Origin: Deltaproteobacteria bacterium
GTDB taxonomy: Bacteria > Desulfobacterota_D > UBA1144 > Nemesobacterales > UBA2774
DNA: 64,000 nt
NCBI GenBank assembly: GCA_040223695.1
Contig: JAVKFU010000015.1
Span: 418,534 to 482,533 of the forward strand
Direction: 5' to 3'
The notes beneath the pieces were generated by a model, which saw only the letters and a list, made by a program, of their open reading frames with translations, was not told the origin of the DNA and made no database searches. How positions within the stretch are numbered: position 1 is the first letter of the stretch; the number at the start of each line of letters is the position of its first letter. The position numbers and the translations under genes are program-made. Of the stretch, positions 22,536 through 57,583 are shown one piece after another.

Positions 22536-22562
22536 GTCATTCTGAATTTATTTCAGAATCTC
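22536..22562 (+). repeat. 27-nt short-form palindromic repeat
   Basis: GTCA, then stem TTCTGAA, a short loop, stem TTCAGAA, then TCTC. Same length and flanks as the copies around the GIY-YIG gene, which carry CCCTGAA/TTCAGGG: the two stem changes are compensated on both sides. About 15 further bases (GTTTTTAAATCC) follow before the next element, a TCATCCTGAG...GAAGGAT hairpin at 22579-22613. Confidence 0.8.
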
Positions 22563-44657: not shown

Positions 44658-44693
44658 GTCATTGCGAAGGGGCGAAGCCCCTGCGGCAATCTC
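44658..44693 (+). repeat. 36-nt palindromic repeat variant
   Basis: Ends GTCATTGC and GCAATCTC with an internal GGGGC-GAA-GCCCC hairpin. Same GTCA and TCTC flanks as the other copies, but the stem is TTGC/GCAA. It lies 6 nt upstream of a long-form copy in the smpB-dtd gap. Confidence 0.75.
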
Positions 44694-54778: not shown

Positions 54779-55276
54779 GTGGATACTCATATTATAATTA
54801 TTCTTGTAGCAATACTTGGAGTAGTTGGCGCGCTGGTAGGGGCACTGAGCTCGATAGCTGGAGTTCTGATAGGTTCATTCTTTTCCTTTTTAACCTCAAG
54901 ACGTCAATTTCAATCAACTGTAATATCAAATAAAAGACAAGAATGGATTAACACACTAAGAGATACCATTTCAGAATTCCAAAGTGTATTAGTCAGCTTA
55001 AATTTTTTTATTGATACTACGGGCAAGTTTAATGAAGAAAAACAAAAAGAGTATCAAGTTATCATTCAAAAAGTCGCATTTTTACGCTCAAAAATAAATC
55101 TACTAATTAATCCAGTTGAAAATGATCATAAAGAACTATCTGACTTAACTCGTAATGCTTTGGACATGGTAACGAAAAGAGATATGAAAAAGCTCGATGA
55201 ATGTATGACTGGTCTCACCAGCGTTGGCCAAAGAATATTAAAACATGAATGGGAACGTGTAAAAGAAGGTAAGTGA
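54779..55276 (+). CDS. Membrane-anchored helical protein of unknown function
   Basis: 165 aa. One or two N-terminal TM segments (IIIILVAILGVVGALVGAL, SIAGVLIGSFFSFL) followed by a cytoplasmic helical part with QEWINTLRDTISEFQ. GTG start. Base composition is clearly more AT-rich than clpB or proS, suggesting acquisition. Genes of this shape occur in variable regions, but I do not recognise a family. First gene of the island between clpB and pyrF. Confidence 0.65.
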   Translation: MDTHIIIILVAILGVVGALVGALSSIAGVLIGSFFSFLTSRRQFQSTVISNKRQEWINTLRDTISEFQSVLVSLNFFIDTTGKFNEEKQKEYQVIIQKVAFLRSKINLLINPVENDHKELSDLTRNALDMVTKRDMKKLDECMTGLTSVGQRILKHEWERVKEGK

Positions 55277-55312: not shown

Positions 55313-55357
55313 AATCGACCCCACAACCCCATCAGGGTCATCGGCCTCAGTGATTGC
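55313..55357 (-). pseudogene. Relic 1 of the pyrF 3' end
   Basis: A 45-nt stretch that aligns with the last coding bases of pyrF on the minus strand. It has a 12-nt deletion and shares GCCTC and TGATTGC with relic 2 rather than with the live pyrF end. It abuts the left repeat of the GIY-YIG cassette after ~13 nt. Confidence 0.7.
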
Positions 55358-55370
55358 AGGGCAAAAAGCC

Positions 55371-55397
55371 GTCACCCTGAACTTGTTTCAGGGTCTC
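55371..55397 (+). repeat. Left 27-nt palindromic repeat flanking GIY-YIG gene
   Basis: GTCA, stem CCCTGAA, loop, stem TTCAGGG, TCTC. Its first 26 nt are the exact reverse complement of 55720-55745. Confidence 0.9.
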
Positions 55398-55417
55398 AAA
55401 AGATTTATTTTATGCTT

Positions 55418-55744
55418 ATGTCTTATATTTATATTATGAGTAACGCTGGCCTAAGCACTCTTTACATAGGTGTAACGAACAACTTGGAGAGAAGAGTCTT
55501 GGAGCATAAACTCGGTATTGGATCGGACTTTACCAAGAGATATAAACTAAATCGGTTGTTATATTTTGAGGAAGGTGAATTGATTGAAGACGCAATTGCC
55601 AGGGAAAAACAGCTAAAAAGATGGCACAGAGAATGGAAATGGAATTTAATAAAATCAATGAACCCTGATTTGGATGATTTGTCGGAAAGTTGGTATGATG
55701 AAGAACTGCTTAAAGAATTAGACCCTGAAACAAGTTCAGGGTGA
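55418..55744 (+). CDS. GIY-YIG endonuclease inside a repeat-bounded cassette
   Basis: 108-aa single-domain GIY-YIG nuclease (UPF0213/YhbQ-like). GIY is SYIYIMSN at the start, YIG is in LYIGVTNNLERRVLEH with the catalytic Arg, and the metal-binding Glu is in AIAREKQLKRW. The ATG before SYIYIM fits the family; a Met two codons earlier is possible. The gene's last codons (DPETSSG stop) are read from within the right repeat. It probably nicks or cuts DNA, perhaps at the palindromic repeat; that role is inference. AT-rich like the rest of the island. Confidence 0.88.
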   Translation: MSYIYIMSNAGLSTLYIGVTNNLERRVLEHKLGIGSDFTKRYKLNRLLYFEEGELIEDAIAREKQLKRWHREWKWNLIKSMNPDLDDLSESWYDEELLKELDPETSSG

Positions 55745-55745
55745 C
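55719..55745 (-). repeat. Right 27-nt palindromic repeat flanking GIY-YIG gene
   Basis: Inverted partner of the copy at 55371-55397 (26 of 27 identical). It encodes the C-terminus and the stop codon of the GIY-YIG protein. No target-site duplication is visible outside the pair. Confidence 0.9.
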
Positions 55746-55792: not shown

Positions 55793-55891
55793 TTAAAGAC
55801 TCGAAATCGACTCCACAATCCCCTCCACAACCGCATCCGGGTCGTCAGCCTCGGTGATTGCCCGGCCTATGACGAGGTAATCGGCTCCGCT
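55793..55891 (-). pseudogene. Relic 2 of the pyrF 3' end
   Basis: Its 90-nt core (55802-55891) matches 82 of 90 positions, with no gaps, of the live pyrF end at 56724-56813. The reading frame is intact (SGADYLVIGRAITEADDPDA and on) and ends in its own TAA. It has no start and is disconnected from the rest of pyrF, so it is a displaced gene end. Confidence 0.85.
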
Positions 55892-55958: not shown

Positions 55959-56258
55959 TTGGTACATACGACAAATCATTGCTATATCGTTAAAGACGAC
56001 CAAATCCTGAGCGGCGAGCCTATTATAAGGAACACACGGACCCCGGTGCGCGCCATAGTAGAAATATGGAGGATGGGGGTTTCGCCGGAAGAAATACCGG
56101 AGCGCCTCCCTCACCTGAAACTTTCTCAAGTGTTCGACGCCCTAAGCTACTATTCCGATAATCAGGACGAAATAAACGCTTATATTGAGCGTAATCGTAT
56201 CTCAGAACACGAAATAGACCCCTTAGTTCAAAATAACGGCTCTGGTAAAGAAATCTGA
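55959..56258 (+). CDS. DUF433 antitoxin-like protein
   Basis: 99 aa: IVKDDQILSGEPIIRNTRTP is the DUF433 opening, then IVEIWRMGVSPEEIPERLPHL and LSQVFDALSYYSDNQDEINAYI, a wHTH-type DNA-binding fold. TTG start with AGAGGA upstream. DUF433 proteins are predicted antitoxins partnered with DUF5615 PIN-like toxins, and such a gene follows 93 nt downstream. Confidence 0.88.
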   Translation: MVHTTNHCYIVKDDQILSGEPIIRNTRTPVRAIVEIWRMGVSPEEIPERLPHLKLSQVFDALSYYSDNQDEINAYIERNRISEHEIDPLVQNNGSGKEI

Positions 56259-56351
56259 GAACAAACAGTATCTCCCTGTTAAGAATCAGCAATTAAGAAA
56301 GTTTTTCGAGAAAACTTGACACGCTTTTTTAAGGCTGTACCTAATCTTCTT

Positions 56352-56699
56352 ATGAATAAGCTTTTCTCTGAGCTTTATCTTGATGAAGATGTTGACGTTC
56401 TAGTTGCCAGATTGATTGAAGCACATGGTTTTTCCGTTATAACTACAAGAGATGCCGGTCAATTGGGTAATACAGATATAGAGCAACTCAATTTTGCAGT
56501 AAATAATGGTAAAACTTTGTTAACCCACAATCGGGTTGATTTTGAATTGCTCGCTAAAAATTTTGCTGATATAAGTAGAGAGCATTCGGGAATAATAATA
56601 GCTTCACGTAATTCACCATATGAAATTGTCAGGAGATTACTGTTAATTCTTAATCAGGTAACTGCCGATGAAATGAAAAACCAGGTTCGTCATATTTAA
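56352..56699 (+). CDS. DUF5615 PIN-like toxin
   Basis: 115 aa. The PIN-like acidic residues are in LYLDEDVDVLVARLI (start), TTRDAGQLGNTD, LLTHNRVDFELLA and HSGIIIAS. Predicted RNase toxin of the DUF433/DUF5615 pair. The ATG at 56352 fits the family, which begins a few residues before the LDED strand. It converges on pyrF, with 21 nt between stops, exactly at the pyrF 3' end. Confidence 0.85.
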   Translation: MNKLFSELYLDEDVDVLVARLIEAHGFSVITTRDAGQLGNTDIEQLNFAVNNGKTLLTHNRVDFELLAKNFADISREHSGIIIASRNSPYEIVRRLLLILNQVTADEMKNQVRHI

Positions 56700-56720: not shown

Positions 56721-57443
56721 TCACGAAATCGACCCCACAATCCCCTCCACCACCGCGTCAGGGTCGTCAGCTTCGGTTATTGCCCGGCCTATGACTAGGT
56801 AATCGGCACCGCTTGATATTGCTTCGGCGGGTGTCACCACCCTCTTCTGGTCATGAGCTTCCCCCGCGGGCCTTATGCCCGGCACTACAAGCGTAAACCT
56901 GTCCCCGAACTCCTTCCTCAGCATCTCCACTTCCCGTCCTGAACAGACAAGCCCGTCAACTCCCGCTTTGTCCGCGAGTGATGCGAGAGTCAGTACGACA
57001 TCTTTTGCCAGTGAGTTAATGCCTATCTTTTTCAGGCTATCGTCATCGTGGCTCGTAAGAACGGTTACAGCGAGTACTAGCGGTTTATCCCGGTGCAGCT
57101 TTTCCGCTTCCCCGGTTACCGCGTCAGCGACGGCTCTCATCATGTCCAGGCCGCCGAGTGAGTGAATTGTAAACATCGAAACGCCGTAGCCCACAATCTG
57201 CCTGGCCGTTTTCTCCACTGTCGAGGGAATGTCGTGGAGCTTGAGGTCGAGGAATATCTCCGCCCCCATGTCGCGGAATTCCCTCAGACCTATCGGCCAC
57301 GCGTCGAGGAATAGTATGGGTCCTACCTTAAAGGTCTTTATTCTCCCCCTTAGCCCCTCGACCCAGAACCTGGCAATGCGAAGCTCGGGGAAATCGAGAG
57401 CGAGGATTATACGTTCGTGGGGTTTTAGTTCCGGTCTTGCCAT
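56721..57443 (-). CDS. pyrF: Orotidine 5'-phosphate decarboxylase
   Basis: 240-aa type 1 OMP decarboxylase, the last step to UMP. Motifs: ILALDFPEL, FKVGPILFLDAWP, the catalytic FLDLKLHDIPSTV near residue 63, and the phosphate-binding TLVVPGIRPAGEAHDQ and YLVIGRAITEADDP near the end. The start before RPELKPHERII is chosen; an ATG 33 nt upstream lies within a palindromic repeat. Two displaced copies of its 3' end lie downstream. Confidence 0.94.
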   Translation of the reverse strand: MARPELKPHERIILALDFPELRIARFWVEGLRGRIKTFKVGPILFLDAWPIGLREFRDMGAEIFLDLKLHDIPSTVEKTARQIVGYGVSMFTIHSLGGLDMMRAVADAVTGEAEKLHRDKPLVLAVTVLTSHDDDSLKKIGINSLAKDVVLTLASLADKAGVDGLVCSGREVEMLRKEFGDRFTLVVPGIRPAGEAHDQKRVVTPAEAISSGADYLVIGRAITEADDPDAVVEGIVGSIS

Positions 57444-57471
57444 GAGAGTATTATTACATATTTTCTTAGCA

Positions 57472-57583
57472 GCCATCCTGAACTACGATTGCGAGCAAGT
57501 AAGCAATCGGGTCAATTTGTTGAATGCAACAGAGTAAGTATTCCCCGGTTATACCTGTATTAACCCTAAACATTCAGGATCTC
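57472..57583 (+). repeat. Long-form (112-nt) palindromic repeat copy
   Basis: Fills the gap between pyrF and proS and ends 5 nt before the proS stop. Outer stem ATCCTGAA / TTCAGGAT; inner stem CGATTGC / GCAATCG around GAGCAAGTAA. Same length as the copy at 44700-44811, with paired stem changes. Confidence 0.8.

Follow-up and report, generated by a model that had tools for sequence, protein, structure and literature searches.

REPs rank among the most abundant bacterial repeats, and the enzyme of those carrying a GTAG tag is RAYT. Di Nocera et al. (2013; PMC3733652) split bacterial REPs into GTAG- and CGTC-tagged superfamilies. As described there, a CGTC REP has an unpaired CGTC or TGTC tag, a loop of 4-5 nt, a stem of 8-9 bp that starts with AT, and a short tail. 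The class includes dRS3 of Neisseria and RPE-4 and RPE-6 of Rickettsia, and Wolbachia is also listed among its carriers. The survey states that these repeats "apparently lack a dedicated transposase", leaves the question for later work and reports species with repeats but missing REPtrons; in no case was a CGTC repeat found to flank a tyrosine transposase.

The window studied here, the whole 64,000-nt stretch of DNA that was analysed, contains a GIY-YIG nuclease gene between two inverted CGTC REPs. A preliminary description had read this locus as a compact mobile unit comparable to REP/RAYT systems, with a GIY-YIG nuclease in place of the Y1 transposase. That reading is supported by the hairpins flanking related nucleases, the boundaries of the units, the matching of hairpin type to nuclease clade, the co-occurrence of nuclease and repeats in genomes, and the failure of Y1 genes to account for the repeats.

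Results

The unit occupies positions 55371-55745 and comprises three features:

55371-55396, + strand: left hairpin repeat, a CGTC-type REP of the CTGAA/TTCAG type, GTC tag outward
55412-55744, + strand: GIY-YIG nuclease gene, 110 aa, intact, start codon ATG at 55412 or 55418
55720-55745, - strand: right hairpin repeat, exact reverse complement of the left arm, tag outward

The left arm reads GTCACCCTGAACTTGTTTCAGGGTCT and is preceded by a C, making the tag there CGTC. The inverted pair is perfect, as had been described: the arms are 100% complementary over 26 nt at a spacing of 323 nt, and each is a hairpin with a GTC tag, an 8-bp stem ACCCTGAA/TTCAGGGT, a 5-nt loop CTTGT and a CT tail. A 21-nt core, with up to 3 mismatches allowed, occurred twice in the window and not once in 100 dinucleotide shuffles. 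The open reading frame between the repeats matched PF01541 (GIY-YIG, E=1e-15), and its final codons and stop do come from the right repeat, which encodes the C-terminal DPETSSG followed by TGA. In-frame DPETSSG also occurred beyond stops, a pattern that resembled selection for read-through; no inference is drawn from this, because the sequences were picked by similarity to a query ending in DPETSSG. Nuclease units lack the target-site duplication of classical insertion sequences: no general direct repeat was found outside the arms, and the scores obtained were driven by repeat arrays. We read 55371-55745 as a single autonomous copy of an element resembling a transposon, in which inverted CGTC REPs with outward tags bound a GIY-YIG gene, at a probability of roughly 0.7.

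The nuclease has the Tyr, Tyr, Arg and Glu that place a protein of this fold in the GIY-YIG superfamily, and its catalytic-type residues are intact: Y7, Y18, G20, R28, H32 and E65 were invariant in 28 relatives. An AlphaFold2 model (mean pLDDT 88) showed a GIY-YIG domain whose closest fold match was UPF0213 (1zg2), followed by Slx1 and UvrC.

By tag, stem, loop and dispersal, the window repeat is a CGTC-tagged REP. Base pairing in this repeat was assessed at 273 sites that were picked by a 15-nt core only, ignoring pairing in the flanks. The first flanking position paired at 260 of the 273 sites (shuffled mean 110, maximum 132), through C-G at 130, G-C at 102, T-A at 26 and A-T at 2, and the second at 264 (shuffled mean 155, maximum 176). 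In ACCC stems, including the window copy, the second pair T-A is replaced by C-G. The GTC tag was kept, unpaired, at 244 of the 273 sites, with C or T before it at 201. The covarying stem and the conserved unpaired GTC therefore indicate selection on a hairpin with an unpaired tag. The tail was mostly CT, not the CCA common in the 2013 survey (PMC3733652).

Two further CGTC repeats lie elsewhere in the window:

22536-22561, + strand: single dispersed REP of the same type as the nuclease arms, GTCATTCTGAATTTATTTCAGAATCT
44658-44692, + strand: dispersed TTGCGA-type CGTC REP; hairpins of this type flank a second, degenerate GIY-YIG copy on another contig of the genome

The claim that related repeats occupy other sites in the window is thus true in kind and thin in number, with a single repeat matching the nuclease arms in type and a second belonging to a different CGTC type. 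A repeat search of the window gave 9 matches, compared with 2 short ones in a reversed-sequence control. The genome-wide search that the preliminary description had proposed bore out a multi-copy, dispersed repeat: the 16-nt core, with up to 2 mismatches allowed, was found 20 times in the 3.03 Mb source genome, compared with 0 for the reversed pattern. The second GIY-YIG copy of this genome (L022:1437-1790, contig C18) is C-terminally broken and has TTGCGA-type hairpins on both sides. Open reading frames called on repeats of this type yield peptides like RHCEAPKEPRQSH, a common mis-annotation.

The neighbourhood of the unit contains three versions of the pyrF 3' end:

55313-55362, - strand: degenerate copy of the 3' end of pyrF, lying outside the unit on its left
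55802-55891, - strand: copy of the pyrF 3' end, right of the unit, 91% identical over 90 nt
56721-57476, - strand: intact pyrF, whose true 3' end is 56721-56813

The nuclease unit lies between the two displaced copies, and a DUF433/DUF5615 pair (55959-56699) lies between the second copy and the true end of pyrF. The relative G005 carries a nuclease unit directly downstream of pyrF in opposite orientation, and G004 a degenerate one at the same place; other relatives have none there. An extra pyrF-tail copy is present beyond the unit in G005, and G002 has a pyrF-tail copy with no unit. The pyrF region is possibly a recurrent integration hot spot. A small open reading frame between clpB and the unit (54779-55276) has a hydrophobic N-terminal stretch and matched no family above the cut-off.

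A scan of GTDB returned 454 relatives of the nuclease. The best 80 of these 454, chosen by similarity to the window protein and representing 79 loci, span Dadabacteria, Bacteroidota, Marinimicrobia, Gastranaerophilales, Omnitrophota, TM6, Elusimicrobiota and candidate-phyla bacteria. Strong inverted arms surrounded the gene at 49 of these 79 loci, compared with 0 of 138 control positions. A gapless inverted-repeat search under-counts such arms because they often differ in stem sequence, and hairpin detectors with shifted controls were used in its place. The sample for these was 175 nucleases with full flanks, drawn from the relatives together with added relatives, Flavobacteriaceae and plasmid records. 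GTC-tagged hairpins with tags outward were found on both sides of 93 of the 175 (53%; shifted controls 1/398), and a hairpin on at least one side of 134 (14/398). A stricter detector found them on both sides in 63/120 and on at least one side in 88/120 (controls 2/358 and 8/358). The opposite tag orientation was rarer, occurring on both sides in 31 of the full-flank sample. Of 123 right REPs, 34 contained the nuclease stop codon. Phages yielded no close relative of the window nuclease.

In Neisseria gonorrhoeae a GIY-YIG gene lies among dRS3 repeats (record L137), a weak single case in a genome where dRS3 is very dense. The Neisseria link rests on nucleases of the same clade in Aeromonas and Azospirillum, which do have proper flanking hairpins. 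The gonococcal entry, filed as a 2.17 Mb "plasmid", is evidently a chromosome.

Hairpin type followed the nuclease. Left and right arm types agreed in 81 of 97 units (shuffled mean 35, maximum 47), and on a tree of 179 nucleases the type changed 17 times (label-shuffled mean 54, minimum 47). Where CTGAA/TTCAG hairpins were missing, the nuclease proved to have CGTC hairpins of another type. The helix that follows the catalytic Glu differed among the types: it read K(R/N)WH(R/K)xWK with CTGAA hairpins, KAG(S/N)RxxK with TTGCGA, KGWxRxKK with CTGAG, KKW(R/K)RxKK...(FLN/FMN) with TTTCGA, and K(K/R)W(N/K/Y)RxWK with TTCCC, TTCCG, TTCCA or GGGCTTGAC hairpins. YhbQ/UPF0213 proteins, the outgroup on the tree and the nearest solved structures (1zg2, 1ywl), mostly had no CGTC hairpins, and end in ...SRxKKEALIxGDF... 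where the unit nucleases have ...(W/K)K..LI...NPxWxDL. Two YhbQ-like genes of Christiangramia (L177, L178) have one CGTC-type hairpin, GTCACACTGAG...GAAGTGTCT, 40 nt downstream; this clade may not be wholly free of hairpin association.

Nucleases and repeats also occurred together. Among 41 related genomes, REP counts over three types ranged from 2 to 163 in the 21 with a nuclease and from 0 to 10 in the other 20, a difference that was significant with phylogeny only partly corrected for (p=7e-8; p=0.002 for genus medians). Three or more TTGCGA hairpins were present in 8/8 genomes with a TTGCGA-type nuclease, compared with 8/33 others. In 151 Flavobacteriaceae, with kinship likewise corrected for only in part, at least 5 CTGAA hairpins were seen in 41/54 genomes with a close nuclease and in 14/97 others; several of the nuclease-rich exceptions carry units of other hairpin types. 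Because cross-type co-occurrence was mildly positive as well in the 41 relatives, the main evidence for matching is the flanking hairpins and the tree.

The preliminary description had named two observations that would point to chance association, nucleases without palindromes and repeats in genomes without the nuclease. Both were seen to a limited extent. Bare nucleases comprise most of the YhbQ/UPF0213-like outgroup and about 23% of the full-flank sample, in which the detector found no hairpin. Repeats with no detected cognate nuclease were seen in a few genomes (G022 and G025; G102 and G121 among Flavobacteriaceae).

Homology between units ended at their hairpins. Three loci (L076, L081 and L090) were 94-96% identical between the outer hairpin edges and unrelated outside them, and one genome carried two unit copies 8.6 kb apart (L116 and L127). 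In 208 non-syntenic pairs, homology ended at the outer hairpin edge in 93 (left) and 78 (right), and crossed it in 7 (left) and 8 (right). In Azospirillum, a nuclease unit separates sufB from sufC.

Comparison of orthologous sites, also proposed at the outset, revealed occupied and empty forms both at the pyrF locus and on Sphingobium plasmids. In the interval between fnrL and a response-regulator gene, three Sphingobium plasmids (L138, L139 and L146) have a hairpin-gene-hairpin arrangement that reads CGTCACCCCGGG-[insert]-TCAAGCCCGGGGTGACG. At the same place L142 has a single palindrome in which the left arm's left half is joined exactly to the right arm's right half; the same is nearly true of L141, and two more strains have no CGTC hairpin there. 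The joined halves are compatible with insertion or with deletion at an 8-nt direct repeat, ACCCCGGG. No further case of REP presence or absence was found over 50-kb colinear Sphingobium segments.

Junctions recurred at the loop apex CTGAAC^TTG, both as nested hairpins (L107; L005 and L011 of the source genome) and as half-hairpins ending there. Divergence points lay just after this apex in 46 cases and further on in 19, with contributions from base composition and from mixing of hairpin types. These sequence patterns hint at the apex as a candidate cut site. Hairpins nested at CTGAAC^TTG in the loops of other hairpins were also observed in L019 and L020 of the source genome and in L026 and L031. 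In Elusimicrobium (L068:2400-3600), half-hairpins are arranged in tandem, (GTCATGCTGAACGAAGagaagt)n. One of two related genomes has an insert of ~150 bp in the 3' end of the nuclease gene (L109:970-1130 vs L028:3255-3270); its ends are ACCAATTC/GAATTGGT and it carries a tag-outward pair of TTGCGA-type hairpins, which makes the two loci a MITE-like presence/absence pair.

Discussion

We propose, with the probability of roughly 0.7 given above, that the unit is an element similar to REP/RAYT, driven by an enzyme with no homology to RAYT. The nuclease would recognise its own hairpin (GTC tag, stem-loop and CT tail) as single-stranded DNA or as an extruded cruciform, and would cut there; recognition would depend on the variable helix that follows the catalytic Glu (in the clade of the window nuclease, E-K-Q-L-K-x-W-x-R-x-W-K). 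Repair after cutting could then copy either the complete unit or just a hairpin into new sites. Solitary and paired REPs would be its non-autonomous derivatives, as are the REPs and REPINs of RAYTs. What is shown is the association, the matching and the dispersal of the units; hairpin cutting by the nuclease, and copying driven by that cutting, are probable. We know of no GIY-YIG enzyme that joins strands, and any copying of the unit would therefore rest on host repair.

The main rival is a homing-type variant. Here the REPs would be spread by another agent, and the nuclease gene would be a homing-type parasite that uses them as target and homology arms and lands in the apex of a palindrome already present. 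GIY-YIG is a homing-endonuclease superfamily (PMC1564403), REPs nested in REP loops and half-REPs ending at CTGAAC are recurrent, and the empty Sphingobium site is exactly the two halves of the occupied site joined. However, that empty form could equally be a deletion between the direct repeats, and symmetric GTCA...TGAC target palindromes are rare (about 3/273). Homing also leaves unexplained why REP number tracks the nuclease and why solitary REPs are of the clade-specific type, and we consider it unlikely.

A housekeeping or regulatory role is less likely again. An Slx1-like structure-specific nuclease could trim hairpins in the genome, and those beside its own gene could serve as terminators or autoregulators; Slx1 and UvrC are indeed the closest folds after UPF0213, and REPs lie near gene ends, with the stop codon inside more than a quarter of the right REPs. 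Yet the matched mirror-image arms, outward tags, hairpin-edge boundaries, multi-copy dispersal and patchy distribution are marks of a mobile unit, and the YhbQ/UPF0213-like outgroup is mostly hairpin-free.

We also considered RAYT as the mobiliser, with Y1/HUH transposases moving the repeats and the nuclease as hitch-hiking cargo. REP/RAYT is the known paradigm, and many relatives do carry Y1_Tnp genes. However, no Y1_Tnp match (PF01797) was found in the window's genome or in ten other repeat-bearing relatives, 14 Y1-bearing genomes have at most 2 repeats, and Y1 presence was unrelated to repeat number (p=0.25); the 2013 survey likewise found no tyrosine transposase with a CGTC repeat beside it (PMC3733652). 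This explanation is very improbable, and for the clade of the window nuclease we reject it. That a common repeat and a common gene, both abundant in some genomes, lie together by chance is refuted by the control positions, where paired arms occurred at 0/138, 2/358 and 1/398 compared with 53% of nucleases.

Recurrence of this arrangement in many phyla, with enzyme and hairpin types matched, makes the GIY-YIG nuclease family the best candidate for the agent that spreads CGTC REPs, one of the two great hairpin-repeat classes; a matched nuclease flanked by these repeats is a specific, testable candidate enzyme. On a broader claim we are evenly divided: that CGTC REPs are dispersed over at least 8 phyla by a GIY-YIG nuclease working without a transposase, a reverse transcriptase or an intron, with a protein-hairpin specificity code in the helix after the catalytic Glu, and that these units form a class of autonomous mobile element not previously known in prokaryotes. 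If true, it would explain where several repeat families come from, among them Neisseria dRS3/NIME, the palindromes of sphingomonads and rhizobia, and the ubiquitous GTCATTGCGAG...GCAATCT repeats that are mis-annotated as proteins; some widespread "proteins" would be accounted for as well. An unrelated enzyme would have converged on the REP/RAYT lifestyle, and its small nucleases, in which hairpin specificity would change with a short helix, would provide a natural series for studies of DNA-structure recognition.

Several known systems invite comparison. Free-standing GIY-YIG homing endonucleases include the kin of I-TevI and enzymes of the SegA type. They share the catalytic fold with the unit nuclease, and selfish spread by cutting and repair is plausible for both (PMC1564403); the present unit differs in having no intron, intein or NUMOD domains, in being bounded by its own hairpins and in lying at many unrelated sites. 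A homing endonuclease gene interrupts its own recognition site within an intron, an intein or an intergenic allele; the Sphingobium sites, with their joined half-palindromes, would fit such an insertion as well as a deletion. Penelope-like retroelements also use a GIY-YIG nuclease in the service of a mobile element (PMC1564403), but they are eukaryotic and have a reverse transcriptase, which the present unit lacks.

The repeats themselves resemble the CGTC REPs of the 2013 survey (PMC3733652) in their unpaired tag, 8-9 bp AT-first stem, 4-5 nt loop and short unpaired tail, their pairs in opposite orientation and their spread over many phyla. The survey describes CGTC REPs with no dedicated transposase and contains no nuclease association, and the stem types CTGAA, TTGCGA, CTGAG and TTTCGA of the present units go beyond its text. 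The absence of an associated mobility gene was part of the 2013 description and not a defining feature; that CGTC REPs flank nuclease genes is a new point.

The closest likeness is to REP/RAYT (TnpA_REP, REPtron; PMC8266576). Both have a small nuclease gene between inverted tagged hairpins, a tag 5' of the stem with CT on the other side, solitary and paired non-autonomous copies, and matching between enzyme and hairpin. RAYT is a Y1 HUH transposase with the tag GTAG, whereas the present unit has a GIY-YIG nuclease without a HUH motif and the tag GTC. A further hallmark of REPtrons is that the enzyme cuts single-stranded REP DNA in vitro. Judged as a REPtron, the unit has the inverted flanking hairpins and dispersed copies of the same type, and lacks the Y1 HUH gene and the GTAG tag. 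No description of a link between this nuclease and CGTC REPs was found among the open-access papers searched, preprints excluded. Because of this, and because the unit differs from REP/RAYT in its enzyme and tag and from insertion sequences in its lack of a target-site duplication, we regard it as new in kind: the repeats are known and the nuclease fold is known, and the element that joins them works like REP/RAYT.
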